This document shows positions 2,682-50,665 of a DNA stretch of 64,000 nt, piece by piece (positions within the stretch are counted from its first letter, which is position 1; each line of letters begins with the position of its first letter). The DNA lies in NCBI GenBank assembly GCA_016795205.1, contig JAEUHZ010000006.1:1-64000 (forward strand), written 5' to 3'. The notes below the pieces were generated by a model. It made no database searches, was not told the origin of the DNA, and worked only from the letters and a program-made list of their open reading frames with translations. Both the position numbers and the translations under genes were made by a program. This DNA comes from Planctomycetota bacterium. Lineage in GTDB: Bacteria; Planctomycetota; UBA1135; GCA-002686595.

Positions 2682-4897
2682 TCGCGCGCCGTCACGGGCC
2701 ACGTCTTCAGGATCCTCCAGGCGATGACGGCGCCGTGCTCGTCGCGCGACGCGACGTGCAAGGCCGCCAGGAGGTCCCGTTCGCCGAAGTGGACGGAGCG
2801 CAGCGCGAACGTGCGGCCCACGATCGCGCTGGCCCTGGCCGAGCTGCCGAGCTCTCCGACGCGCGAGCGGAAGGCCTTCGCCGCCGCGCTCTCGCGATTG
2901 CGTGCGGCGCTGATCGCCTGGTCGCGCGCCGGTTGGACGGCGGGCAGTTCGGTCGCGCGCGGGAACTCGTACCCCGAGACGTAGGCGCCGAGCTCGCCCT
3001 GCGCGGCGACGAGGTCCAGCGTGACCGAATCGAGCGGCGTCGTCCCGAGGTCCACGAACGCGCCGGCGCTGCCGCCGTGCGGCGCGGCGCTGAGGGAGGC
3101 CTGGTCGCCGACGCCTTGGAACAGCACGTCACCGCTCGCGTCCTGTTGCCGCGTGAGGAACGCGACGTCCGCGCGGCCCGTACGGCTGGTGGTGAGCTCG
3201 GCCCACACGGAGAAGTAGGGCACGAGCCGCGCGAGGCCCGCGTCGGGCTGGTCGCGCAAGGCACCGAAACGCGCTTCGACCTCGGGCGGGATGCGATCGA
3301 AGAGGACCTCCTCCGCACGCCGGCGCACGACGTCGAGCGCGGCGCGGAGCTCGGGCTCGGACCGGCGCGCGAGCTCCGCCGGGGCAGGCGGGAGCACCAC
3401 GCGGTAGTCGTCGGGCACGTGGACGCCGCGCTGGTTCGCGACCGGGCGCGATTCCAGGATCCGGTACGCGATCGTGCACTGGTCCTCAGCGACCTCGAGC
3501 ACCTTCACGGCGACGAGGACGTCGTGATCTTCCCGCGAGATCGAGCGCAGCAGGTACGCGTGGCCCGCCCGTGCCCTGGGATCTGTGCTGCGCGCGGCGC
3601 GGGCCTCGTCGGGCTTCAGCATCCCGGTCCCCTCGGCCTCCTGGACGCGCGACTCACGCAGCGCGTGGAGGCCCGCCGCGCCCGGATCGACGTCCGCCGA
3701 GGCGACTTCCCACAGGAGCCTCTGAACCGGCGTGAGATCGGCCGGCGCGCCGCGGGCGGCGGAGATGTCGGCGAGGCTGCGTTCGCCGAGGTCCACGAGC
3801 AGGCCCTGAGGGCCGACGCCCAGGTTGCCCCCCTCGAGGCTGACCTGCGGCCGGCGATTGAAGTCGTGCGCGCGCTCCGTGAAGGAGTAGTAGGCGCCGC
3901 CCTCGCGCATCCACGGCAGCGAGTAGGCCAGGCCGAACGCGTTGCGATCGAGCAAGCGCACGACGCCGCTCGTCGACGAGTCCTCCCGGATCCCCGCGCG
4001 CGCGCGCTCGTCGGGCGTGACGGCAAGCCGGCGGTCGAGGATCAGCTGCTTGATCTGCCGAGACTGCTGGAGGAGCTGCGCGGGCTCGTCGGCGGGAGTG
4101 AACCAGGAAACCTCCGCGGACTGCGCGTCCGGCGAGGCCGCGGCCGCGACGCGCGCCGAGTCCGGTGACGTCGGGTGGAGGGCCGGGGGTGTCAGCGTTC
4201 CGACCGGCGCGACGAGCGGCTCGACGGCCGCGAGCTCCACCGCGCCCGGCGGCGCGAAAGCGGCGCGCACGACGAACACGGCCGCGATGCAGGCCGCGAC
4301 GCCCGCGCCGATCGCGAGCGAGCTTCCGAGGGCAGCCGGACCGGCGCTGGCAACCGGCGCGTCGTGCAGGGTGAGCAGCCCCGTGAGCCCACGCATCCAG
4401 CTCGCCCGCTCGCCGTGTTCGCGATCGAGCTTCGTGCGCAACAGCTCGTGCGCGCGGCTGAGCTGGGAGCGCACGGTGCCCGCCGGCACGCCGCGGCGCT
4501 CCGCGATCTCGGCCGGCGTGAGGCCCTCGTAGTACGTCGCGACGACGACGCTGCGGTACGGATCGTCGAGCGACAGCACGGCGCGCACGACACCGTGCTC
4601 CATCTCGAGACGCTCCATCGCGCTCTCGGCCGCGGGCACAGCCTCGGGCCGCGCTGCCGCGACCTCGCGCGCGGTGCGCCGGCGGGCGGAGCGGTGCAGC
4701 TCGTGCGCGTGGTTGCGCGTCACGTGCGCGAGCCAGGCACGCACGCCGGCGTGCTTGGGCGGATGCTCGACGGCGGACGCGAGCGTGCGTTGCGCGACCT
4801 CCTCGGCGTCGGCCTCGCCGCGCACGAGCGTGCGCGCGAGCCGCAGCACGAAGGCTTCGTGTCGCAGGAGGGATTCGTGGGTCAGTCCGTGTTCCAT
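2678..4897 (-). CDS. RNA polymerase sigma factor (ECF-type) fused to a membrane anchor and large C-terminal domain
   Basis: The 739-residue protein starts at ATG 4897, with GGAGAA seven bases upstream of it. A longer in-frame start exists but lacks this site. Residues about 10-75 look like sigma-70 region 2 (RTLVRGEADAEEVAQRTL) and about 105-157 like region 4, with the helix-turn-helix LTPAEIAERRGVPAGTVRSQ. A hydrophobic helix at about 190-215 follows, then roughly 520 residues with no domain I recognise. These contain several conserved-looking blocks but no cysteine pair or obvious enzyme motif. The sigma part would be cytoplasmic and the tail periplasmic. Planctomycetes are known for ECF sigma factors with long C-terminal extensions. 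A plausible reading is that the tail senses an envelope signal and release or a conformational change frees the sigma part. No separate anti-sigma factor lies alongside. Confidence 0.85.
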   Translation of the reverse strand: MEHGLTHESLLRHEAFVLRLARTLVRGEADAEEVAQRTLASAVEHPPKHAGVRAWLAHVTRNHAHELHRSARRRTAREVAAARPEAVPAAESAMERLEMEHGVVRAVLSLDDPYRSVVVATYYEGLTPAEIAERRGVPAGTVRSQLSRAHELLRTKLDREHGERASWMRGLTGLLTLHDAPVASAGPAALGSSLAIGAGVAACIAAVFVVRAAFAPPGAVELAAVEPLVAPVGTLTPPALHPTSPDSARVAAAASPDAQSAEVSWFTPADEPAQLLQQSRQIKQLILDRRLAVTPDERARAGIREDSSTSGVVRLLDRNAFGLAYSLPWMREGGAYYSFTERAHDFNRRPQVSLEGGNLGVGPQGLLVDLGERSLADISAARGAPADLTPVQRLLWEVASADVDPGAAGLHALRESRVQEAEGTGMLKPDEARAARSTDPRARAGHAYLLRSISREDHDVLVAVKVLEVAEDQCTIAYRILESRPVANQRGVHVPDDYRVVLPPAPAELARRSEPELRAALDVVRRRAEEVLFDRIPPEVEARFGALRDQPDAGLARLVPYFSVWAELTTSRTGRADVAFLTRQQDASGDVLFQGVGDQASLSAAPHGGSAGAFVDLGTTPLDSVTLDLVAAQGELGAYVSGYEFPRATELPAVQPARDQAISAARNRESAAAKAFRSRVGELGSSARASAIVGRTFALRSVHFGERDLLAALHVASRDEHGAVIAWRILKTWPVTARD

Positions 4898-38186: not shown

Positions 38187-39506
38187 TCACCAGGGGTCGC
38201 CGAGCCCGGCGCGGATCTCGCGGATGCGCTTCTCGAGGCTCTCGTCGGGCCGCAGGCCCTGGACGACCATGGAAGCGATCGTGGCCACGAGGTCGTCGGC
38301 GCGCGGGCGCGAGTTCGGATTGACCACGGCCTCCTCGAGCGCGCGCGCGTAGATCGCGCGGGCCCGGGCCTCGTCGCCCATCGCGACGCAGGCCTCCGCC
38401 AGCGGGCGCAAGACTCCGCCACGGTACATGTTCACGATGCGCTCACGTTCCTTGGCGTACGCATCGAGTGCGAACTCGACCTCGCCGGAAGCAGCCTCGC
38501 GATCGCCCGCGCGCGCGCGCAGGGTGGCCACCCGCGCCACGAGCGGGATGCTCGTCTCCGCGTCCCAGCGAGCGGCCTCGATCGCAGCGCGCGCGAGGTC
38601 GAGCAGCTCGCGGGCCTTCGACGCGGACTCGTGCGCCAGGGCGTGCCCGGCCAGTGCACAGTAGGCGTCGACCCGCAGTTGGACGGGCATCTTGGCCAGG
38701 GCGGTCGCCACGCGTTCCTCGAGCAGCGCGCGCTTCTCGGCGTCGAGGAAGAACCGGCCGTACAACTCGGCATAGGCGCCGAGCGCGGCCCGCAGGGGGT
38801 CGAAGGAGCCGGCCGCGACGAGCGCATCGAGGCGGCGCACTTCGGCTTCGAACTCGGCCTCAGGCGCCGAACGGGCGCGCTGTGCGTGGATCGGGACGCT
38901 CTCGGCGTCGATCGTGCCCTCGGCGGCGCCGTCCGCGCGGGTCGACTGGCCCAGGACCAGGTAGGTGCGCGCGATCCAGGCGCGGATGCGGTCGCGCCGC
39001 CACTCCTGTGAGACCTCGATCCCGTCGCCACCCGCGGTCGGATCGGCGGGCAGGCCTCCTCCATCGGCGATTCGTTGGGCCTCGTCGAGGAACTCCTGCA
39101 CGCGCGCCAGTCGACCATGGCGGGCCTGATGGTGCGCGAACGCGCCCAGCGCTTCGCCGCGTCGCCAGTTCGCGATGCCCGCGGCGTAGCGCAAGGCCAG
39201 ATCGGGCTGGTCGACTTCGAGCGCCGCGAGAACGACCTCGACCTGCGCGCGCGAGCGATTCTTGATGTGTGGATTGACCGGGAACGCGCTGGCCACGTCG
39301 AACGCCAAGTCGAGGAACTCGATGCGCCAGGGCTCGACGACCGGGACCGGCGCGCCAGTGGACGCCGCCTGCGCGGAGCCCGGCGCGACGTCGACTTGCG
39401 CGGCGGAGGCCGAGTCGCGCTGGGGAGCCACCGCACTCGATTCGGTGCAGCCGAGGGTGGCGAGGCAAGTGGCGAGGAGCAGGGTGAACCGGTGCGCAGG
39501 CTTCAT
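38187..39506 (-). CDS. Predicted lipoprotein with TPR-like helices
   Basis: The 439-residue protein starts at ATG 39506 with a lipoprotein-type signal (RFTLLLATCLATLGC, cysteine at about residue 20). The mature part, after a low-complexity Ser/Ala/Gln linker, is all-helical with TPR-like pairs (VEVVLAALEVDQPDLALRYA, RARAIYARALEEAVVNPNSR). It is the last gene of the Ton-related minus-strand array, 147 bases after the Cys-rich exported protein. I do not know its family. It could be a membrane-tethered adaptor of the Ton module, like the TPR lipoprotein at 41922, but the spacing allows a separate promoter. Confidence 0.78.
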   Translation of the reverse strand: MKPAHRFTLLLATCLATLGCTESSAVAPQRDSASAAQVDVAPGSAQAASTGAPVPVVEPWRIEFLDLAFDVASAFPVNPHIKNRSRAQVEVVLAALEVDQPDLALRYAAGIANWRRGEALGAFAHHQARHGRLARVQEFLDEAQRIADGGGLPADPTAGGDGIEVSQEWRRDRIRAWIARTYLVLGQSTRADGAAEGTIDAESVPIHAQRARSAPEAEFEAEVRRLDALVAAGSFDPLRAALGAYAELYGRFFLDAEKRALLEERVATALAKMPVQLRVDAYCALAGHALAHESASKARELLDLARAAIEAARWDAETSIPLVARVATLRARAGDREAASGEVEFALDAYAKERERIVNMYRGGVLRPLAEACVAMGDEARARAIYARALEEAVVNPNSRPRADDLVATIASMVVQGLRPDESLEKRIREIRAGLGDPW

Positions 39507-39653
39507 CGGCGGTGGGCTGTCGAGGCAGGGCGTCCGGCAGGGACGCGAAGAGGAGGGAGAAGCAGGCGACCCCCGGCGGCGCGATGGGACTCGCTCACGA
39601 GCCCAGCGCACGGCCGGAGGCCGACGTCGGTCAGGAACGATCGCGGCGGTCGA

Positions 39654-41684
39654 TCACAGCTCCCAGGTGAGCTGCAGGCCGTTCGTCAGGTTGAAGGTGT
39701 CGGCCGTGCAGAACGCGGCCGCGTTGCGATACCAGACCTGGTAGGTGCGCGTGCCGGGCACGGCCACGAGGCCGCGGACGGAGACCGCGAGGTCGGCACC
39801 GACCGGGTACGAGGAAGCGCCGGCGGCGTTGGCCTTCGTGCCCAGGCGGATGATGGCACCGGCGGCGCAGCGCTTGCCGTCGCCGAAGGCCACACCGTTG
39901 CCGCCACCGGCCTGCGTCGTGCCCTGGAAGTACAGCGCCGAGCTGTTCGGCATCTGCGTGCCGATCAGGACGACGGTGTCGTTCGAGAGGCTCGAGCAGC
40001 CCGTGGCGCGCAGCTTGCCGCCCACGTTCAGCGAACTCAGGCAGCCGACGTTGTCGCCGACCGCGCTGCTGTTGCCGCACGGGCAGGCCACGCCACTTCC
40101 GTCACCGAAGCAGTACTGCGTGCCCAGGTCTGCGGCCGGCGTCAGGCCGTACGCGAACGTGGCCGTCCAGTCGCACAGCCAGTGCTGCACGTCGCCCGGG
40201 GCGAACGCGCCGCGGTACTGGGCCGGCGTGAAGAACCCGTCGTTCGGCGCGGCGTTGACGCTCGTGAGCGCAGCGGCGGCCGGACGCGGGTCGAGTTGGA
40301 TGACGGGCAGCATCGTGAGGGCGCCCGCCGGCGTCGCCGGACCACGCGTGATCGAGCGGATCGGCTGATTGGCGGGGTTCGCGGCAAACGTGCCGGCGTT
40401 GACGTTGTTGTTCGTCGCATTGCCCGGCAGGACGCCGCGCGCCGTGGCCTCGGTGTAGGCCGCCCCGTTCAGGTTGTTGTAGAAGACGCTGTCGGTGATC
40501 TCGGCCAGCTTGCCATTGGTCTGCGCCGGGTAGCCCAGCCAGCCACCGAGGCCCGGAGCCGGGTCATTCGCGTGCGCCGGCGCCGCGTTCCAGTTCGTGG
40601 TCCAGGTGTCGGCCCACGAGAGCGTGCCGTTGAAGCCGTAGCCGTTGCCGCCGTCGCCATCGATGTTGTCGAAGGCCACCAGGCGCTCGCCGAGGTCCAT
40701 GAAGATCGAGTTGCGGATCTGGGCGCGGGCGTTGTCACGCCAGGCCGTGCCGTGGTCGCCGCTGATCGGCTGACCGATCACGGTCATGTTGTAGAGCGCG
40801 GTCGTCGTGACCGGCTGGTAGTCCGACTGCTCCGCGCCGTCGATCTCGATCGCGTTGTCGCCCACGCCCGAGCCTTGGGGCGCGGCCGCGCTGAAGCCTT
40901 GGACGATGAGCCCGAACTGCGCCTTGCCGCGCCAGCCCTGGTCGACGTCGAGGCTGTCGTCGCCGATGTTCCAGATGCTGAAGTACTTCAGGTTGACCGT
41001 GCCGCCCCAGATCTCGATGCCGTCGTCGACGTTGTTGAAGATCTCGACGTGGCTGATGTCCGTGCCGCGGCCGATGCCGCCCAGCGACAGGCCGTTCAGC
41101 TCGTTGTTCAAGCCGATGACCCGGCCGCCGTAGCGGAACGAGACGTAGCGCAGCGAGCCGCTGTCGTCATCGTCGTTGCCGCCGCCGTAGCGCACGCGCG
41201 TGTCGCCCGGGAAAGCCTCGGTCAGGCCTTCCATGATCGCGTAGTTGGCGGCGCTGGGAGCGGCGGTGTTGCCCGGCGTCGCGTTCTCGGAGACGTACGC
41301 GTTGCCGCAGATCGTCAGGTTGCCCCACTCGTTGACACCCAGGCGGGCCGTTCCGGTCTTGGGATCACCGCCGACCCACGTCGCCACGTCGGCCTTCGAC
41401 GTGAAGATGATCGGGTTCGCGGCCGTGCCATTGGCGATGATCTGCGCGCCACGGGTGACCGCCAGGCTGCCGCCGATGCCCGTGTCGCTGGCGATGATCG
41501 TGCCGGCTTCGATCGTCAGCGTCGCGCCGGGCAGGACGTAGATCTGGGTCTGGAGGTTGTAGGTGTTGTTGGCGGTCCAGGTCGTCGACGTCGCGATGTC
41601 CGACGTGACCAGGATCTCCGCCGCGTTGGCCGCGCCGGCGAAGCAGAGGCCGGCGATGGCCGTGTGGAGAACGTACTTCTTCAT
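39654..41684 (-). CDS. Exported beta-helix-like protein with Cys-rich C-terminal domain
   Basis: The 676-residue protein starts MKKYVLHTAIAGLCFAGAANA, a clear signal peptide. Next comes TLTIEAGTIIASDTGIGGSL and AQIIANGTAANPIIFTS, the repeating pattern of parallel beta-helix surface proteins. Many Asn/Gly/Asp-rich turns follow (RYGGGNDDDDSGSLRYVSFRYGG, NNVDDGIEIWGG). Residues 524-676 form the YCFGDGSGVACPCGN domain, seven cysteines, the same length as and ungapped against that of the choice-of-anchor protein at 5400. The gene lies just beyond a complete TonB motor/receptor set on the same strand, so it may be the surface protein that this system handles or a partner that captures its ligand. 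No enzyme motif is seen. Confidence 0.85.
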   Translation of the reverse strand: MKKYVLHTAIAGLCFAGAANAAEILVTSDIATSTTWTANNTYNLQTQIYVLPGATLTIEAGTIIASDTGIGGSLAVTRGAQIIANGTAANPIIFTSKADVATWVGGDPKTGTARLGVNEWGNLTICGNAYVSENATPGNTAAPSAANYAIMEGLTEAFPGDTRVRYGGGNDDDDSGSLRYVSFRYGGRVIGLNNELNGLSLGGIGRGTDISHVEIFNNVDDGIEIWGGTVNLKYFSIWNIGDDSLDVDQGWRGKAQFGLIVQGFSAAAPQGSGVGDNAIEIDGAEQSDYQPVTTTALYNMTVIGQPISGDHGTAWRDNARAQIRNSIFMDLGERLVAFDNIDGDGGNGYGFNGTLSWADTWTTNWNAAPAHANDPAPGLGGWLGYPAQTNGKLAEITDSVFYNNLNGAAYTEATARGVLPGNATNNNVNAGTFAANPANQPIRSITRGPATPAGALTMLPVIQLDPRPAAAALTSVNAAPNDGFFTPAQYRGAFAPGDVQHWLCDWTATFAYGLTPAADLGTQYCFGDGSGVACPCGNSSAVGDNVGCLSSLNVGGKLRATGCSSLSNDTVVLIGTQMPNSSALYFQGTTQAGGGNGVAFGDGKRCAAGAIIRLGTKANAAGASSYPVGADLAVSVRGLVAVPGTRTYQVWYRNAAAFCTADTFNLTNGLQLTWEL

Positions 41685-41921
41685 GGAGCTACTCACTCGA
41701 TCCGTCACAGGAGGGAGCCCGCGCAGCACGGGGGGATCCGCTCCCCGCCACGCATGCTGCGCGTGCGGCGAGGAGGATCCGGGCAGGCTGTTGGCATCCG
41801 ATGAAGAGTCGATGCAGGTCCGCCGAATGGTCGCGCATCACAGCCCGCGGCACACGGGCACGAAGCAGCCAGCGCGTGCCCACGGCTGGGCGCGCTCGGT
41901 CTCGCGGCCCGGATTCCGTGC

Positions 41922-43385
41922 TCAGCGCGTCTGCGCGACGCGCTCGACCTGCTCGAGGTACTGCTGGATGTTCTCCCGCGGCTTGATCGTCTGCGCGCGG
42001 CGCAAGAGCGGCAGTGCTTCGGAGTAGCGACCTTTCCCCACCAAGAGCTGCGCGTGCCGCACCTTGGCGTCGGCCTCGAATGCCTCGAGGCTGGCGGCGC
42101 GCTCGAACCAGAAGATCGCCTTCTCGACGTCCCCGGCGCGACCTTGTTGCTGGCCGAGGAGGATCAGCGCTTCGCCGTCCAGTGGATCGAGCGCGACGAT
42201 CTCCTCCAGGATGCGCGCTTCCTCGGCTCCAGCGCCTTCCGCGACGGCGTGGCGCGCGCGCAGCTTGAGCACGTCCTTGCGTTCCTCGGCCGACAGGCGG
42301 CCGGCGTGGACGTCCTCGATCGCCTCCACGAGGCGCTTCACCGCGGCGCTCGCACCACGCGCGGTCAAGGCCTTGGCGGCGCGGATCGCGCGGTTCGATC
42401 CGACACGAGGGTCGAGCTGCATGGCGCGCACGTAGGCGTCGACGGCCAGGTCGTAGAGCTCGTCGTTCACGTAGATGTCGGCCAGCGTGTTCAGCGAGTC
42501 TGGAGTCGAGCGTCCGAGCCCGTCGACGAGTTCGTAGTTCTCCGCGGCGCGCTTGGGCTGGTTCAGGCCGATGAAGGCGTTGGCCTGCAGCAGCCACAGG
42601 TCCGCGCGTTCGGGATCCGCTGCCAATAGCTGATCGCACAGCGCCGCCGCATCGGCGTAACGGCGCTGCTCGAAGAAGCTGCGCGCGAGCCCCATCTTCC
42701 AGTCGAGCGTCTGCGGGTCGAGCATCGACGCCAGGCGGAAGCCCGACTCGGCTGCCAGGTGGTCACCCAGGTTCGAGTACGCGTAGGCCAGGAGGCCGTA
42801 GGTCACCGCGTCGCCGCTGCCCAGCTCAACGACGCGCACGAACGCACGCGCGGCGTCGGCGTACTCACCTTGGCGCACACGGATGAGGGCCAGGTTGCGC
42901 CAAGCTCGACGGAACTTGGGGAACTTCTGCGTCGCGACCGTGTAGGCCTGCGCGGCCTCCGGAAGTCGGTCGGCCTGGAAGTGCAGGTTCGCCAGCGTGA
43001 AGTCGAACACGGCGCTGCTCGCGCCCGACGTCGACTTCACGATCAGCGCGATGGCCTCGTCGGGCTTGTTCGCGCCCATGAGGTCCAGGATCTTCTGCAT
43101 CGTCTCGCGTTCGGGCGTCGCCAACCGCGGCTCGATCTCGGTCTCCGCTGCGTAGCTCTCGACGAACTGCCGCCGGAACACCGGGTCGTTCCAGATCCAG
43201 AGCTCGAAGGCACGGCCGCCGACGTCACGCCGACTCGCGCCGGCATCCGCGGAGAGGAGCGGCGCGACGGGCAGCGGCGCGCTCGACACGGCCGGTGCGG
43301 TCGCAGCACGCAGGTCCGCGTCGGGCCGTTCGACAGATGCGCACGCCGCGACGAGCCACAGGACGGGGAGCAGGGCACGGATCAT
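41922..43385 (-). CDS. TPR lipoprotein of the Ton module
   Basis: The 487-residue protein starts at ATG 43385, two bases after the tonB stop, with a lipobox (LPVLWLVAAC, Cys at about residue 15). It contains at least seven TPRs, for example YTVATQKFPKFRRAWRNLALIRV and VRAMQLDPRVGSNRAIRAAK. A TPR protein at the end of exbB-exbD-tonB operons is a known companion in TonB2/TtpC-type systems of Vibrio and Xanthomonas relatives, where it supports energy-dependent uptake. Here it would sit in the periplasm on either membrane. Confidence 0.88.
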   Translation of the reverse strand: MIRALLPVLWLVAACASVERPDADLRAATAPAVSSAPLPVAPLLSADAGASRRDVGGRAFELWIWNDPVFRRQFVESYAAETEIEPRLATPERETMQKILDLMGANKPDEAIALIVKSTSGASSAVFDFTLANLHFQADRLPEAAQAYTVATQKFPKFRRAWRNLALIRVRQGEYADAARAFVRVVELGSGDAVTYGLLAYAYSNLGDHLAAESGFRLASMLDPQTLDWKMGLARSFFEQRRYADAAALCDQLLAADPERADLWLLQANAFIGLNQPKRAAENYELVDGLGRSTPDSLNTLADIYVNDELYDLAVDAYVRAMQLDPRVGSNRAIRAAKALTARGASAAVKRLVEAIEDVHAGRLSAEERKDVLKLRARHAVAEGAGAEEARILEEIVALDPLDGEALILLGQQQGRAGDVEKAIFWFERAASLEAFEADAKVRHAQLLVGKGRYSEALPLLRRAQTIKPRENIQQYLEQVERVAQTR

Positions 43386-43387
43386 GG

Positions 43388-44077
43388 TCAAGAGCCTTTC
43401 GGGAACGTGATCGGCACGCGCATGCGGAAGCGGACGGGCTGGCCGTTGCGCTTCCCAGGTTCGAACTTCCACTGCTTCACGGCGGCCAACGCCGGCCGCT
43501 CGAAGACCGGATCGGTCGAGCTTTGGGCGATCGGCGACTCGACGCGCCCGTCCTGGCCCACGACGAAGAGCACGTAGACGCTGCCCGGCAGCCTCTTGCG
43601 CGCTTCCTTGTCCAGGATCGGACTGGGCTGGTGGATGACCCGTGGCTTCTGGTCGAGGTCCTGCAGCGAGAAGAGCGCGTCGGCATCGGCGCCAGTCGCG
43701 GCCTTGGTGTCGAGCTTCACCGCGAAGTCACCGCCCAGCCAGCCGTCGCCGACGCCGCCGCCGAGCGCCAGTTCGAGCTGCGAGAGATCGAGCGGCGGCG
43801 CATCCTCCAGCAACTCGGGCGGCTGCTCCTCGGGTTCGGGCTCCTCTTCTTCCTTCTCCTCCTCGGGCGGGGGTGGAGGCGGAGGCGGGAGGTTCGCGGT
43901 GTCGACGCCGCGCAGGTCCGTGTCGGCCAGCGGGCTCTGCGAGATCGCTTGGATGAGCGGCAGCACGAGGAACAGCGCCAACGCGAACACGAACGCGCCG
44001 GCGACGACGAGCACGCCGTGCAGCACGACCCTCGCCGCGGAGCGTGCGCCGCTCCGCGCTTCGGCCGCCGTGGACAT
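43388..44077 (-). CDS. tonB: TonB energy transducer
   Basis: The 229-residue protein has one N-terminal transmembrane helix (about residues 18-45), a Pro/Glu-rich rigid spacer (about 62-92, poly-Pro then acidic), and a C-terminal TonB domain (about 130-229) with PRVIHQPSPILDKEARKRLPG, VYVLFVVGQDGRV and AALAAVKQWKFEPGKRNGQPV. The YP motif often seen in TonB is replaced. The start overlaps the exbD stop by one base (TGATG). It passes proton-motive energy from the ExbB/ExbD motor to the outer-membrane receptor encoded upstream in the array. Confidence 0.94.
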   Translation of the reverse strand: MSTAAEARSGARSAARVVLHGVLVVAGAFVFALALFLVLPLIQAISQSPLADTDLRGVDTANLPPPPPPPPEEEKEEEEPEPEEQPPELLEDAPPLDLSQLELALGGGVGDGWLGGDFAVKLDTKAATGADADALFSLQDLDQKPRVIHQPSPILDKEARKRLPGSVYVLFVVGQDGRVESPIAQSSTDPVFERPALAAVKQWKFEPGKRNGQPVRFRMRVPITFPKGS

Positions 44078-44490
44078 CAGCCGCCCTGACTCCGCGTGGC
44101 GACGCTGACCTTCGTCGCGCCGCCCAGCTTGGCCTCGTCGACGATGCGCACGAGCAGCCCGGAATGCGCGAGGCTGTCCGCCTGGACGATGACCGGCAGG
44201 TCTTCTTTCTGGAGCAGGCGCTTCACGAGCGCCTGGACGCCGCCGATGCCGATGTCGCGACCGCCGTACACGACCTCTCCGCTGGCCGTGAGCGCGATCA
44301 GGATGCTGGTCTTCTCCAGCCGCACCGCGGAGGCCGCCTGCGGCTTGTCGACCTGCACGCCGGTTTCCTCGACGAAGGTCGTCGTGACGATGAAGAAGAT
44401 GAGCAGGATGAAGACGCAGTCGATCATCGGCGACATGTCGATGCCGACGTCGTTGCCATCCTCGGAAGCCAGGTCGCGGAATCGTCCCAT
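44077..44490 (-). CDS. exbD: Biopolymer transport protein ExbD/TolR
   Basis: The 137-residue protein has a single transmembrane helix (about residues 18-42) carrying the essential aspartate in [18 protein letters not shown], then a periplasmic domain ending in [29 protein letters not shown]. This is the usual ExbD layout. With the two ExbB-type proteins it forms the proton-driven motor. It is nine bases after exbB and overlaps tonB. Confidence 0.95.
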
Positions 44491-44499
44491 GTGCGGCTC

Positions 44500-45255
44500 C
44501 TAGGGCAGTGCCGCGGCCGTTGCGCCGCGCGCCTGCTTGGCCCGTGCGCGGGCCGGATCGGGTTGAGCTGGGGTGCCTGCTTCGGCAACGCCCGGCACGG
44601 AGCTCGACGCGCGCGCTGCGCTGGCCGCGCGCTCGACGCCGAGCCGGCGGTAGAGGTTCTGGGTGCACACGGTCTCCATGTGCGCCAGGAAGGCCTTGTA
44701 GCGTTCGTGCTTGCGCGCGAGCTGGTACTGGAAGAAGAGCCCTGGCAGCGCCACCACCAGACCGGTCATCGTGGTGATCAGCGCCTCGGAGATGCCGGCC
44801 GCGATCAGCGCCATGGTCTGATCGCCGCCCGAGCCGGTCGCCAGCGCGCCGAAGGTCGCCAGCATGCCGGTGACCGTCCCGAACAAGCCTACGAGCGGCG
44901 CGGCTCCGATGCAGACCTTCATGACGCGCAGATCGCGTTGGAACGGGGCGATCTCTCTCGCGCGCAGCTCCTGAAAGGCGCGCGCGATCTCGTCCAGGTC
45001 GCGCGCAGCGGTCACGAACGCGATCTGCGCGCCGACGTACCCCGCGCGCTCCTCGGGGTGGTCGATCCAGCGGCGCCAGCGCGATTCGGGGACGGACTGG
45101 AAGCCTGTTTCCTGCAAGCGCAGGAACACGTGCACGCCCAGACCGAACAAGAGCAGCGCGATGACCGCGATGGCGATCATCGCCCAGCCACCCGCGACCC
45201 AGATCGCGATGGCACGGTCCCAGATCTCGATCGCGCGCGTGAAGACGGCTTCCAT
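44500..45255 (-). CDS. exbB: MotA/TolQ/ExbB proton channel protein (ExbB)
   Basis: The 251-residue protein has one N-terminal helix (WAMIAIAVIALLLFGLGV), a cytoplasmic domain, then the channel helices with the family motif GAAPLVGLFGTVTGML and ISEALITTMTGLVVALPGLFF. It is the shorter of two ExbB-family proteins in the array. A C-terminal Ala/Arg-rich tail of 40 residues is unconserved. It forms a pentameric pore with ExbD in related systems. Confidence 0.94.
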   Translation of the reverse strand: MEAVFTRAIEIWDRAIAIWVAGGWAMIAIAVIALLLFGLGVHVFLRLQETGFQSVPESRWRRWIDHPEERAGYVGAQIAFVTAARDLDEIARAFQELRAREIAPFQRDLRVMKVCIGAAPLVGLFGTVTGMLATFGALATGSGGDQTMALIAAGISEALITTMTGLVVALPGLFFQYQLARKHERYKAFLAHMETVCTQNLYRRLGVERAASAARASSSVPGVAEAGTPAQPDPARARAKQARGATAAALP

Positions 45256-45271
45256 CGTGGCTCCTCGGGCT

Positions 45272-46759
45272 TCAGGCCACCGCGACGAGCGGCTTGGGCT
45301 CTGGAACGAGCGCGGGAGTGGGCTCGGGGTCCGGCGTGATCGCCGGCCCGGCCTTCGCGAGCTGGTTCAGGAAGCCGACCGCGGCCGTCTCCATGTCGTC
45401 GACGACGCGCTTGGCCTTGCGCGTCAGGAACGCGTGGATGAGCAACGACGGGATCGCCACGATCAACCCGAACTCGGTCGTGATCAAGGCCTCCGAGATG
45501 CCGCTCGAAAGCGTCTTCACGTCACCCGTGCCGAACACGGTGATGAGCTGAAACGTGTTCATGATGCCCGTCACCGTGCCCAACAAGCCGAGGAGCGGCG
45601 CGGCTGCCGCGCTGATCGCGATGAAGGGCAGGAAGCGCTGCAGGCGCAGCCGCGTCGTGAGCACGTTCTCGAAGAGCACCTCCTCGACCAGCTCGCGCGG
45701 CTCGTCCAAGTGCGCGACACCGACCACCAGCATCGCGCCGACCGGTCCGCCGATGGCGGCCGCCTTGGCCTGCGCCGCCGCGTGGTCGCGCCGTGCCACG
45801 GCGGCGTGCAGTTCCTGGATCCGCGCGCGAGAAGGGGAGCGCAAGAAGGCCAGGCCGAGCCAGCGGTACAGCGCCACGAGGAAGGCCGCGCCGGCCAAGA
45901 GGAAGATCGGCACCAGCACGGGGCCGCCCTTCTTCACGTGCTCGACGAACGTCTCCTGGGTCGCGGCCACCTTGTGCGCGTTGCCCAGCGTCGTGTCGAT
46001 CGGCGCGAGGCCCGCGCCGCTGGCGACGAACGCGGCGGCAGCATCGTGGTCCTCGGGACGCTCGAAGGGGATCTGCGCCGGTTCCAGCGATCCGAGCCGC
46101 TGTTCGGCCGTGCCCACCGCGGCTCCGTCCGCCGAGCGGAACCAGGCCGCGGGGCCCACCAGCGCGAACGTTCCGTGCCGCACGGCCCCGTCCGGGCCGA
46201 CGGCCGTGCCTTCGAAGCGCGTGCCGCCCACGGCGTCCTCGAGGCGCGTGATCGAGGTCGCCAGCAACGCGGCCTGCCGCGCCAGCACCTCGTCACCGGT
46301 CAGCGTCGTGTTCTCGTGCGCCAGCTTGGCCTGCTCCAGTGGGCCGGCATGACGCTGCAACTCGGCGACGTGCAGGCGCGACTCGAAGTTGCGCGCGTAC
46401 TCGCTCAGCAGGTTCGAAAGGTAGGATTTCTCCTCCTGCCGCGCCTTGATCTCGTTGCGCAGGTTCGAGAGATCGAGCGTGCGGCCGTCGAGCAGCCGCG
46501 TGGTCTGCTGGTGCTCCTGTCGCGCCTTCTGCAGGTCGCCCTCGAGCTCGCTCAGGCGGCGCGACAGCGGAATCTTCTCCTCGGCGATCCTCTTGCGGAG
46601 CGAGTCCAGCTCGGCCACGGCCTCGTCGAGGCGTCGCTGCAGGTCGGCCTGGGCGTCCTCGAACGTGCGCTTCGCTGTGGCCGGACCGGCGTCCGATTGC
46701 GCCTGGAGCGATGCGGGAAACGCCAGCAGCGCCAGGAGGAGTGCGTGGAAGTCTTTCAT
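45272..46759 (-). CDS. TtpC-like MotA/TolQ/ExbB protein with periplasmic coiled coil
   Basis: The 495-residue protein has a signal peptide (MKDFHALLLALLAFPASLQAQ), a long coiled coil (about residues 30-130, with SLRKRIAEEKIPLSRRLSELE), and a small periplasmic domain. C-terminally comes a full ExbB-type channel part with AAAAPLLGLLGTVTGIMNTF and SSGISEALITTEFGLIVAIP. Upstream in-frame sequence overlaps DUF3450 and is not used. In Vibrio, TtpC is the fourth essential member of the TonB2 complex and has this same architecture. A second ExbB follows 16 bases downstream, as in Vibrio. Confidence 0.92.
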   Translation of the reverse strand: MKDFHALLLALLAFPASLQAQSDAGPATAKRTFEDAQADLQRRLDEAVAELDSLRKRIAEEKIPLSRRLSELEGDLQKARQEHQQTTRLLDGRTLDLSNLRNEIKARQEEKSYLSNLLSEYARNFESRLHVAELQRHAGPLEQAKLAHENTTLTGDEVLARQAALLATSITRLEDAVGGTRFEGTAVGPDGAVRHGTFALVGPAAWFRSADGAAVGTAEQRLGSLEPAQIPFERPEDHDAAAAFVASGAGLAPIDTTLGNAHKVAATQETFVEHVKKGGPVLVPIFLLAGAAFLVALYRWLGLAFLRSPSRARIQELHAAVARRDHAAAQAKAAAIGGPVGAMLVVGVAHLDEPRELVEEVLFENVLTTRLRLQRFLPFIAISAAAAPLLGLLGTVTGIMNTFQLITVFGTGDVKTLSSGISEALITTEFGLIVAIPSLLIHAFLTRKAKRVVDDMETAAVGFLNQLAKAGPAITPDPEPTPALVPEPKPLVAVA

Positions 46760-46776
46760 GGTCGCGGGCTCGCTCT

Positions 46777-47562
46777 TCACTGGATGCGCATGGGCAGCGG
46801 CACGAACTCCGCCACGTGCTCGTTCTTCAGCACCGCGATGGCTCGCGCGATACGCGACGCGGCGTCGTTCGCGGGCGTCCAGACCCAAGCCTCGGCGCCG
46901 GACGTGCCGGTGCCGGCCGACAGGCCGCTCGCCGTGACGAAGTAGCCCTGGGAGATGCCCAGGTAGATCGCCGTGACCTCCGCCGTCGTCCCGTCGCCGA
47001 GTTGGCGCACCTCGCTCGTCAACGTGATCGTGCGGTGGAACTTGTCGATCTCGTTCAGGATCCCGACCACGTTCTGGAAGCGCTCCGAGAGCGTGCTGCG
47101 CGCCTCGGCGGTCTCGTCGGGCAACCGTTGACTGAGCGGCTTCACGCGTTCGCGGATCGGGTCGGGCAGTCGCCTCAGGAGGGCGCGCGTCCGGGCCTCG
47201 AGGCCGGCGACCGTCGTGGCGAGCGAGGCCGAGGCTTCCTTGAGCCGGGCGTTCTCCTCGAGCAACGCCTCGCGCTTCTTGTCGGCCTCCGCGATGCTGC
47301 CGCGCGCGTCGCCGATGCGACCCTGGAGCGCCTCGATCTCGCGCAGCAACACGGCGGCGCGGCTCTCGAGCACCTCCTTCCCGACCTGCCAGTCGCTCTG
47401 CTCGAGCGAGATCACGCGGCGCGTCTCGACCCACCTCTCCAGAGTGGTGCGGGCCGTCGCGATCTCGGGCCCCGCCTGCGGCGGGAAGGTGGCGCTCGAG
47501 CAGACGAAGCCGGCCGCGACGGCGGCCGCGGTCCGAGCCGGGATGAGCGTGGTCTTCTTCAT
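46777..47562 (-). CDS. DUF3450 periplasmic coiled-coil protein
   Basis: The 261-residue protein starts MKKTTLIPARTAAAVAAGF at ATG 47562 after GAGGA, with a signal peptide. The body is a coiled coil (EALQGRIGDARGSIAEADKKR) followed by a conserved C-terminal block: RVKPLSQRLPDE, RFQNVVGILNEIDKFHRTITL, AIYLGISQGYFV and WVWTP. These match DUF3450, which almost always precedes ttpC-like genes. Its role is unknown, but it is presumed to work with TtpC in the periplasm. It is 17 bases ahead of the ttpC-like gene. Confidence 0.92.
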   Translation of the reverse strand: MKKTTLIPARTAAAVAAGFVCSSATFPPQAGPEIATARTTLERWVETRRVISLEQSDWQVGKEVLESRAAVLLREIEALQGRIGDARGSIAEADKKREALLEENARLKEASASLATTVAGLEARTRALLRRLPDPIRERVKPLSQRLPDETAEARSTLSERFQNVVGILNEIDKFHRTITLTSEVRQLGDGTTAEVTAIYLGISQGYFVTASGLSAGTGTSGAEAWVWTPANDAASRIARAIAVLKNEHVAEFVPLPMRIQ

Positions 47563-47611
47563 GATGGGTCCTCGTGCTGCGTCGTGCTGCATCGTGCGCG
47601 CCCCTGCGGGC

Positions 47612-50600
47612 TCAGAAGGTGAAACTGGCTCCCAGGGCGATCGAGTACTCGATGCCCTTCGTGTAGGAGGTCTTGAGCACGTCGTCGCCGATGTACTCGG
47701 AGCGGTAGACCTCCTGGATCTCGGGGTTCGTCAGGTTCTTGATCGCGACATCGAGTCGGAAGAACCGGCCGAGCTTCTGGCGCACCGAGAAGTTCAGCGT
47801 GTCGTAGTCCTGCGCGTAGACGTTCGGCACGAAGTTGCCATCGTCCACGCCGGCACCCGCCACGAGCGTGTCGCCCTGGATCGTGTAGAAGAGCGAGAGT
47901 TGCGTGCCGGTCGACTCGATGTCGTAGGTCCCGTAGAGATTGAGCAGGAACTCGGGCGCGTTCGTCATGTCCCGTGTGCTCATGGGAGCCTCGACGCCCG
48001 GCAACGAGAACATGGCCGCCTCGTCGTCGGGCAGTGTCACCTGCGAGTCGATCAGCGTGCCGTTGGCTCCGACAGAGAAGCCGCGCAGCGAGTCCGCGAA
48101 GCGCTGCAGGTCCTGACGGACTTCCAGCTCGACACCCGTGAGACGGCCCTTGGGGTAGTTCACGGGCGTCGTGAACGTGAAGTCGAGTGGCCGCTGGACG
48201 TACTCGATCGCGTCCCTGACGTCCTTGTGGAACCAGGAGGCAGAGACGAAACCACCCTGATACGGGCGCCAGTCCACGCGCACGTCGTAGTTCACGAGCT
48301 CGCTGGTGGAGAGCTCAGGGTTCCCGATGAAGATCGGCCCCCCCAGGTACTCCTGTTGGAGGATCGGCGTGAGCTCCTTGAACGTCTGGCGGGCGATCGT
48401 CCGACTCACGGAGGTGCGCAGCGTGACCTGCTCGGCTGGCGTCCAGTTCAAGGCCAGGGATGGCAGCACGTCGCTCTGGTCCAGGGCCACGTCGGCGTCG
48501 CCCGGGTTGAGGTCGACCGGCGCTGACGCCCCCGGCGGGTACCAGACCGCGTCGGGTCCCGGGTCGTTGACCACGGAGATCTTCGTGCTCTCGACGCGGG
48601 CGCCCGTGATCACGTCGACCGTCGAGGACAGCGGCAGATCGACCATCCCGTACCAGGCGAAGATGTCGATCTCGCCTCGGTAGTCGACGTCGTACGTCGA
48701 TTGCGAGATCGGGTGGTTCTCCTGGTCGAAGACCGCGCTCCACGGCTCGTTCCATCCAGCCTGGTAGGACGCGCCCGCGTCGCCGAAGTTGCTGAAGGTG
48801 TCCTGGTCGAACGTGCGGTCGACCTTGTCGTCGAACAACCCGAACTTCACGTAGCCTTGCTCGTTGCCCCACTGTTGGAAGGGGAACGTCAGATCGAACG
48901 AGGCCTGTTGGCTGTCCTCGTCGATGTCCTTCCAGATCCGCTGGAAGTTCCCCAGGTTGAAGTTGGCGGCGGGCGTGAACGGCAGCCACACCGCCGGCGA
49001 AGTGAACGGCGGCACGAAGGGGGGGAAGCCGGGGTTCAGCGAGGCGGCCTGCCACAGCGCCCCGAACTGGCGCTTGTCGGGCTGGTACAGCTCGGCGTAG
49101 CTCTGCGAGAGAGTCCAGCGCAGGGTCGGCTCGTCGAAGCGGAACGCTCCGATCTCGAAGCCGCCCATCGGCACGAGGTGTCGGCCGGACAACTGCAGGC
49201 TGCCCGTCTGGCGCTCCGTGTACTCCAGCGTCTCCGTGCGCAGGTACGGCGCGGCCAGCACCGTGTCCGGCGTGTTGCCGGGGGCCGTCGGATCACGTCG
49301 GTTGTAGCCCGGGAAGTAGTACTCCTTCCCGCGCGTGTCCGTCGCCAAGGTCGCGGTGTCCTCGGTCGAGCTGGAGTACAGGAACGTCGCCACCAACGCG
49401 TGGTTCTCGGACTCGATCCCGATGGTCGCCAGCCCGCCCCACTGCACGGATTGCGAGCCCTTCGTCACGTCGAACAGGGACGTCTTGAACTCGCCCTGCG
49501 AGGGCGCGCCCTGGCTGTACTGCGGCGTCATCGGGTCGCCGGCGTTCTCGACCCAGTACGAGTCGTCACGGCCGTTGTCGTAGAACGAGCTGTCGCGCTC
49601 GTAGAAGAAGCTCGCGAAGCCCCCGATACGCACGTCGTCGGAGATCTGGCGCTGGCCGCCCCCCGAGAGCGACCACTTCCAGTCGATCGGGGCGTCGTCC
49701 GTGATCGTGCCCGCGGCCCCGGTCCAGTTGCCGCCCAGGTTGTCGTACTGGATCTCCCGACTGCTGCTCTCGCGGCCCCAGGGGCCAACGCCGCCACCGC
49801 GGTAGGTCAAGAAATCGCTGCGCCCCGCGACCTGCGAGTTCTCGCTGTATTGCACGCTGAAGGCCACCGAGGCCTCCTCGGGAATGCCGCGCAGCCGCAC
49901 GTCGACCGCTCCGCCCGAAGCGTCGCCCTGCTGATCGGGCGTGAAGGTCTTCGAGACCTGGATCGACTGGATGACCGGAGAGGGGAACTGGTCCAGCTCG
50001 ACCGCGCGCTTGTCCTCGTCCGCCGTCGGCAGGCGCACGCCGTTCAACTGCGAGCTGACGTAGCGATCCGGCAGCCCGCGGATCACCGCGTACTTGCCGT
50101 CCTGGACCGAGGCTCCCGCGACGAGGCGCAGCGCGCTGGCCGCGTCGCTCGCGCCGGCGCGGCTCATCAGGTCCGCGCCGATCGAATCGAGCAGCGCGGG
50201 GCTCTCCAGTCGCAATGAAAGGAGCGCGGCCTCGGTGCCCGCTCCCAGGTCGAGGACGTCCTGGACGACGAATTCCTCCATCTCGGTGAACTCGCCGGTC
50301 AGGTAGGCGTCGACGTCGGTCAGTTGACCTGCCGACACGATCACGTCGGCCCTCACTTGCCGGACGTAGCCCGCCTTCGAGACGACGATCGTGTAGCGAC
50401 CGGGAGGCAGGCCCTCGATCAGGTACTGACCCTGGTCGCTCGTCTGGACCTGGCGTCCGGTCTCGAGCGCGAGCACCGTGGCTGCTCCCAGCGGCGCGTC
50501 GAAGTCCTGGTCGAACACGACACCGCGGATCGAACCGACCCCGCTCTCCTGCTGGGCGCGCGCGCGCGCCGACGCGAACAGAGCCCCGAGCAAGATCCAG

Positions 50601-50665
50601 CACAGTGGTCGCAGGTAGCGCAGCGCCGGCCAGGTGCTCGAAACACCCGATCCGTGGTGGGGCAC
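47612..50665 (-). CDS. TonB-dependent outer-membrane receptor with N-terminal carboxypeptidase-regulatory domain
   Basis: The 1017-residue protein probably starts at GTG 50665 ahead of a signal peptide (LRPLCWILLGALFASARARA); no ATG fits well and the start is the least certain part. An Ig-like domain follows (VGSIRGVVFDQDFDAPLGAAT, GLPPGRYTIVVSKAGY). A TonB-box-like EMEEFVVQ comes next, then the plug (AASALRLVAGASVQDGKYAV, IRGLPDRYVSSQLNGVRLP). A 22-strand-type barrel ends in YSIALGASFTF with the terminal Phe needed for outer-membrane insertion. The extra N-terminal domain resembles SusC-like receptors, but no SusD is present. The ligand is unknown. It is the first gene of the array and lies 49 bases from DUF3450. 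Confidence 0.94.
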   Translation of the reverse strand: MPHHGSGVSSTWPALRYLRPLCWILLGALFASARARAQQESGVGSIRGVVFDQDFDAPLGAATVLALETGRQVQTSDQGQYLIEGLPPGRYTIVVSKAGYVRQVRADVIVSAGQLTDVDAYLTGEFTEMEEFVVQDVLDLGAGTEAALLSLRLESPALLDSIGADLMSRAGASDAASALRLVAGASVQDGKYAVIRGLPDRYVSSQLNGVRLPTADEDKRAVELDQFPSPVIQSIQVSKTFTPDQQGDASGGAVDVRLRGIPEEASVAFSVQYSENSQVAGRSDFLTYRGGGVGPWGRESSSREIQYDNLGGNWTGAAGTITDDAPIDWKWSLSGGGQRQISDDVRIGGFASFFYERDSSFYDNGRDDSYWVENAGDPMTPQYSQGAPSQGEFKTSLFDVTKGSQSVQWGGLATIGIESENHALVATFLYSSSTEDTATLATDTRGKEYYFPGYNRRDPTAPGNTPDTVLAAPYLRTETLEYTERQTGSLQLSGRHLVPMGGFEIGAFRFDEPTLRWTLSQSYAELYQPDKRQFGALWQAASLNPGFPPFVPPFTSPAVWLPFTPAANFNLGNFQRIWKDIDEDSQQASFDLTFPFQQWGNEQGYVKFGLFDDKVDRTFDQDTFSNFGDAGASYQAGWNEPWSAVFDQENHPISQSTYDVDYRGEIDIFAWYGMVDLPLSSTVDVITGARVESTKISVVNDPGPDAVWYPPGASAPVDLNPGDADVALDQSDVLPSLALNWTPAEQVTLRTSVSRTIARQTFKELTPILQQEYLGGPIFIGNPELSTSELVNYDVRVDWRPYQGGFVSASWFHKDVRDAIEYVQRPLDFTFTTPVNYPKGRLTGVELEVRQDLQRFADSLRGFSVGANGTLIDSQVTLPDDEAAMFSLPGVEAPMSTRDMTNAPEFLLNLYGTYDIESTGTQLSLFYTIQGDTLVAGAGVDDGNFVPNVYAQDYDTLNFSVRQKLGRFFRLDVAIKNLTNPEIQEVYRSEYIGDDVLKTSYTKGIEYSIALGASFTF

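Follow-up and report, generated by a model that had tools for sequence, protein, structure and literature searches.

Most knowledge of TtpC-type Ton systems comes from iron uptake in Vibrio. The motor genes of the Vibrio TonB2 and TonB3 systems are arranged in the order ttpB-ttpC-exbB-exbD-tonB-ttpD, and the TonB3 operon is headed by a receptor gene (PMC6957404). In Myxococcus xanthus, the receptor Oar, which consists of CarboxypepD_reg, plug, and barrel domains, acts with a Ton system in secretion of the protease PopC (PMC6434023). A further receptor with a partner protein has been described in Caulobacter. ElpS (CC0170) is a lipoprotein of the outer membrane that is exposed on the cell surface and produced during phosphate starvation; the type II secretion system (T2SS) is required only for its release, and ElpS reaches the outer membrane independently of T2SS (PMC2996285). 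Overproduction of ElpS raises the activity of secreted alkaline phosphatase; ElpS itself lacked this activity (PMC2996285). The authors of that study noted that ElpS co-occurs with homologues of the receptor CC0171, and proposed that the two proteins interact functionally, with CC0171 taking part in uptake together with ElpS; ElpS was still produced in a cc0171 deletion strain, for which no uptake phenotype was reported (PMC2996285). T2SS and several TonB-dependent receptors belong to the PhoB regulon of Caulobacter (PMC11208175).

The locus described here lies in the window, by which we mean the whole 64,000-nucleotide stretch of Planctomycetota DNA that was analysed. Nine ORFs, all on the minus strand, follow each other contiguously from 50665 to 38187, and the ORFs together with Pfam matches confirm the gene order and spacing given in the initial annotation. 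The features are as follows.

47612..50665, minus strand: TonB-dependent receptor of CC0171/Oar-like architecture, GTG start, signal peptide (PF13620, PF07715, PF00593)
46777..47562, minus strand: DUF3450 protein, TtpB (PF11932, E 1.4e-24)
45272..46759, minus strand: TtpC, an exported coiled-coil part plus a MotA/ExbB channel domain (PF01618, residues 352-457)
44500..45255, minus strand: ExbB (PF01618)
44077..44490, minus strand: ExbD (PF02472)
43388..44077, minus strand: TonB (PF03544, TIGR01352)
41922..43385, minus strand: TPR lipoprotein in the TtpD position (TPR_2, E 8.7e-28; lipobox VAAC)
39654..41684, minus strand: exported beta-helix protein of the ElpS-type family, signal peptide, no lipobox (AlphaFold2 model; family alignments A1 and A5)
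40140..41621, minus strand: conserved beta-helix domain of that protein, residues 22-515, 55-90% identical between cassettes
39657..40127, minus strand: lineage-specific C-terminal domain of the same protein, residues 520-676, common to ca. 105 other proteins of the genome
38187..39506, minus strand: small TPR-like (alpha-solenoid) lipoprotein (AlphaFold2), conserved as the immediate neighbour of the beta-helix gene at 39/39 covered loci

The gaps are 49 bases between the receptor and DUF3450 genes, 17 between DUF3450 and TtpC, 16 between TtpC and ExbB, and 9 between ExbB and ExbD; the ExbD and TonB genes overlap, and TonB is separated from the TPR gene by 2 bases. Larger gaps precede the exported protein (237 bases) and the end lipoprotein (147 bases). 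The DUF3450, TtpC, ExbB, ExbD, TonB, and TPR genes are consecutive, which supports the earlier description of a self-contained TtpC-type Ton module, and MotA_ExbB is found by Pfam in TtpC as well as in ExbB. The likeness to the Vibrio TonB2/TtpC motor order is likewise borne out and, with the receptor gene included, the order is that of TonB3 (PMC6957404). According to Pfam, the receptor is composed of CarboxypepD_reg, plug, and TBDT barrel domains, and the SusD family is absent among the nine proteins, in line with the earlier remark on a receptor that has a SusC-like N-terminal domain and no SusD. The beta-helix protein and the end lipoprotein match no Pfam family. A scan of the window returned no sigma-70 promoters, and terminators at the level of shuffled sequence. 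The source genome (4.62 Mb, 84 contigs, ca. 90% complete) contains a single DUF3450 gene. The arrangement is not an assembly fault, because a complete chromosome, that of Planctomycetes bacterium Poly30, carries all nine genes in an identical order. Including genes on contigs C66, C47, and C78, the source genome encodes five TonB-dependent receptors and three TonB proteins; the remaining two TonB genes are located less than 6 kb from other receptors, and each TonB of this genome seems to have its own receptor.

To describe the wider distribution of the locus, 84,980 species genomes were scanned, and from the 198 relatives obtained a set of 80 was retained. The record titles of these 80 name mainly Planctomycetota; some of the records are MAGs assigned to Omnitrophota, Sumerlaeota, or Deltaproteobacteria, and these could be misbinned. 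All nine genes are present at each of the 39 loci for which 18 kb or more of sequence exists (covered loci), and are arranged in five block orders: beta-helix-lipoprotein-receptor-motor (21 loci), receptor-motor-beta-helix-lipoprotein (nine, the window type), motor-beta-helix-lipoprotein-receptor (six), beta-helix-lipoprotein-motor-receptor (two), and one divergent arrangement. Since the order of the blocks is reshuffled and their content is kept, the data favour a functional link over inheritance of position. The beta-helix domain is encoded in 45 of 294 Planctomycetota genomes, mostly as a single copy, and DUF3450 in 36, all of which belong to the 45 (hypergeometric P ~4e-38, kinship being ignored). 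In 34 of these 36 genomes, the two genes lie on one contig within ca. 9 kb of each other; in the other two, they are on separate short contigs. Thus, the tie of the last two genes to the Ton genes, placed on position alone by the initial annotation, is upheld by conserved neighbourhood, which is complete at the 39 covered loci, and by co-occurrence of the beta-helix protein with the Ton locus; the outcome named beforehand as a refutation, relatives in which these two genes are not conserved next to the Ton genes, did not occur. The receptor, motor, beta-helix protein, and lipoprotein genes are one set that travels together. The nine-gene cassette and its conserved TPR-like companion are new; a literature search conducted outside most subscription journals found no published account of the cassette.

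At L106, the TPR-like lipoprotein is encoded twice (2-616 and 2838-3677), on either side of the beta-helix gene. An apparent lipoprotein-receptor fusion at L133 (11608-15903) was rejected: a frameshift joins two ORFs, and the lipoprotein ends in another frame before the receptor start. In L133, the lipoprotein stop and the receptor start share bases (CCATGGTAG), a hint of possible translational coupling.

Pairwise distance matrices were compared for 43 loci, and the coefficients that follow are raw correlations in which species distance was not partialled out. The beta-helix protein correlated with the receptor at r = 0.74 and the lipoprotein with the receptor at 0.70; values within the group of these three proteins were 0.54-0.74, and values among motor genes were 0.55-0.94. 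Between the surface group and the motor group, r was 0.23-0.44 (0.28-0.36 for the beta-helix protein and the motor genes). We read this as two units, a putative surface unit and an exchangeable energiser. The receptors of the cassettes are 40-98% identical to each other. Four distant Planctomycetota copies combine the beta-helix protein, the TtpC-type motor, and the receptor, with the lipoprotein and DUF3450 undetected, and in one further distant copy the beta-helix gene occurs with the receptor alone. The distant Planctomycetota copies L160, L162, and L163 have the order beta-helix, TtpC, ExbB, ExbD, TonB, receptor, with DUF3450 and the TPR-like lipoprotein undetected.

A plasmid search found distant relatives of the beta-helix protein in 21 records. 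A receptor of the same type adjoins in 20 of them, the exception being a Marinobacter plasmid, and when the 13 plasmid proteins closest to the window receptor are considered, 12 are encoded in beta-helix records. Beta-helix genes beside same-type receptors occur in Alphaproteobacteria, Gammaproteobacteria, and Bacteroidota. By homology, the beta-helix part of the exported protein falls into a family that spans phyla and is paired with one receptor type, a point that the initial annotation had missed. The surroundings of the pair differ: in Alteromonas and Pseudoalteromonas it is accompanied by a DUF3450-TtpC-ExbB-ExbD-TonB-TPR operon, in Sphingomonas and Indioceanicola by T2SS genes, and in Bacteroidota it is found alone. 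All 13 plasmid DUF3450 loci of Alteromonas and Pseudoalteromonas are in beta-helix records, compared to none of nine in Vibrio, Salinivibrio, Photobacterium, and Aeromonas, which implies that the siderophore-type TonB2 is a different branch from the window type. The small TPR-like lipoprotein had no match on any plasmid record searched. The beta-helix domain and the receptor are kept across phyla, and the tail, lipidation, motor, and TPR-like lipoprotein change. In one Alteromonas macleodii plasmid copy (L142, 7375-11445), encoded directly after phoB, phoR, and the gene of a phosphate-binding protein, the protein has three beta-helix domains in tandem together with a lipobox.

The AlphaFold2 model of the exported protein is mostly beta-strand (pLDDT 83.6, pTM 0.90). 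Its best fold matches in the PDB are right-handed beta-helices (enzymes such as lyases and glycosidases, and tailspikes), none of them significant (no match with E <0.001), and a search of PDB sequences with the beta-helix profile gave no match. In the family alignment, 28 positions are invariant across phyla. Ten of these are acidic (E131, E174, D199, D200, E203, D221, D222, D225, E259, and D261), and several are ca. 22-25 residues apart (E174, D199/D200, D221/D222), as if they were stacked on successive coils of the predicted beta-helix. The ten acidic residues suggest possible binding of a metal ion or a metal-bridged anion. A simple-pattern lipobox is found in 0/80 cassette-type beta-helix proteins and is present in the Sphingomonas and Alteromonas proteins. 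The end lipoprotein is modelled by AlphaFold2 as a confident all-helical solenoid with 19 helices (pLDDT 91.9). Up to 17 of 47 homologues match TPR models, and no family library searched names it as more than a TPR protein.

The Cys-rich C-terminal tail of the exported protein was considered separately. It is ca. 155 residues long (39657-40127; L003-L031), starts with CFGDGSG...CPCGN and ends with NLTNGLQ-TW, and has no Pfam or NCBIfam match. The same domain is C-terminal in the ca. 105 other proteins of the source genome, ending, in those that could be read, 0-2 residues from the C-terminus. In appearance this hitherto undescribed domain resembles sorting or anchoring domains, and its abundance is comparable to that of T9SS tails. 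A genome of the same family without beta-helix or DUF3450 matches (G030) has 38 such domains. Among 80 homologous beta-helix proteins, the window-type tail is present in five and other tails in most others; 24 have tails that are dockerin-like by eye, and two (L125 and L139) have almost no tail. The dockerin-like motif NxDGxVxxxDLxxxLxxWG ends the proteins of L071, L076, L080, L086, and L101, among others. Judged from the sequences, the tail is a lineage-level feature and no part of the machine. Thus, of the dedicated machine proposed in the initial annotation, the Ton module and the tie of the last two genes stand, and the Cys-rich tail as a special mark of the locus does not: it is widespread in the genome, abundant in cassette-free G030, and replaced in most homologous loci. 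A role of the cassette in exporting every Cys-rich-tailed protein was likewise rejected, as G030 has its 38 tail domains without a cassette.

The beta-helix protein, the TPR-like lipoprotein, and the CC0171-type receptor are one co-inherited unit coupled to a TonB3-type motor. Because the beta-helix protein and the receptor are constant and the other parts vary across phyla, the simplest reading is that of an outer partner serving the receptor in uptake. The beta-helix protein would be extracellular or exposed on the cell surface, and would capture or prepare a scarce ligand for the receptor, much as SusD-like proteins and hemophores do; the dedicated Ton motor would then drive import of the ligand, and the TPR-like lipoprotein may scaffold the receptor in the envelope. 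Evidence against this reading is that pho, iron, and sugar genes do not recur in the neighbourhood, that Pho-boxes are not in excess at the beta-helix promoters, and that the cc0171 deletion had no reported uptake phenotype (PMC2996285). We give this dedicated TonB-powered uptake machine an approximately even chance of being correct.

Transport in the opposite direction is also conceivable, with the beta-helix protein as the cargo that the receptor and its private TtpC-type motor carry through the outer membrane or flip to the surface, as in the Oar-PopC case. The window receptor has the Oar domain order of CarboxypepD_reg, plug, and barrel (PMC6434023), the beta-helix gene is its constant neighbour, and ElpS reaches the Caulobacter outer membrane by a T2SS-independent route (PMC2996285). 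However, ElpS is still produced in the absence of cc0171, though it was production and not surface location that was reported (PMC2996285). The occurrence of the tail throughout the source genome and in cassette-free G030 implies that proteins bearing the tail are handled without the machine. The CarboxypepD_reg domain, moreover, is common in importers also. We therefore regard export, the main rival of uptake, as unlikely. If true, it would reveal a widespread TonB-powered pathway of protein export or surface assembly, and would explain how ElpS surfaces without T2SS.

Scavenging of phosphate under PhoB control, as was proposed for Caulobacter ElpS, was evaluated from neighbouring genes and promoter regions. 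It would agree with the production of ElpS under phosphate starvation (PMC2996285), with the presence of T2SS and several TonB-dependent receptors in the Caulobacter PhoB regulon (PMC11208175), and with the position of the Alteromonas copy immediately after phoB, phoR, and a gene for a phosphate-binding protein. However, no pho, iron, sugar, or carbohydrate-active genes recur as neighbours at 64 Planctomycetota-type loci, the other plasmid loci examined likewise have no pho genes, and there is no excess of Pho-boxes upstream of 79 beta-helix genes, as scored with the E. coli-type box, the only one tested. Neither neighbours nor Pho-boxes, then, provide a phosphate link in Planctomycetota, and a role in phosphate scavenging appears about as doubtful as export. 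Less probable still is a secreted polysaccharide-active enzyme simply encoded beside a general receptor: the best-scoring PDB structures are lyases and glycosidases of the beta-helix type, but none reaches E <0.001, the protein belongs to no Pfam or NCBIfam enzyme family, carbohydrate-active neighbours do not recur, and the link to one receptor type is too constant across phyla.

With uptake as the preferred reading, the locus raises a testable question, namely, whether the Ton motor imports a ligand, assisted by the beta-helix protein, or moves the beta-helix protein itself. In either case, a TtpC-type system is bound up with a single family of exported proteins and a single type of receptor, in Planctomycetota as well as in a few further phyla, and the Caulobacter pair noticed in 2010 becomes a defined module with invariant residues.

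Compared to Vibrio TonB3, the six motor genes are identical in order, and the window receptor gene is also at the operon head, 49 bases before DUF3450; the window type adds the beta-helix gene, which is found at none of the nine Vibrio, Salinivibrio, Photobacterium, and Aeromonas plasmid DUF3450 loci. The Oar-PopC system is similar in receptor domain order, in having a dedicated Ton system, and in having an exported partner, but PopC is a protease, whereas the window partner is a predicted beta-helix. Like SusC-SusD of Bacteroidota, the window system combines a CarboxypepD_reg receptor with a partner that probably resides outside the outer membrane; the partner, however, is a beta-helix protein and not the all-helical SusD lipoprotein. 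In the ElpS/CC0171 pair, too, a putative member of the beta-helix family is encoded next to a receptor of this type. In Sphingomonas and Indioceanicola, a beta-helix lipoprotein gene followed by the receptor gene, gspN, gspD, and gspE reproduces the published cc0170-cc0171-T2SS order, their beta-helix proteins are ca. 30% identical to the window protein, and the window receptor aligns with the partner receptors of beta-helix genes. By gene order and by homology to these syntenic relatives, the window pair probably corresponds to the ElpS/CC0171 pair. ElpS, however, is itself a lipoprotein encoded beside T2SS genes, whereas the window type has no lipobox and comes with a C-terminal domain, a Ton motor of its own, and an extra TPR-like lipoprotein.
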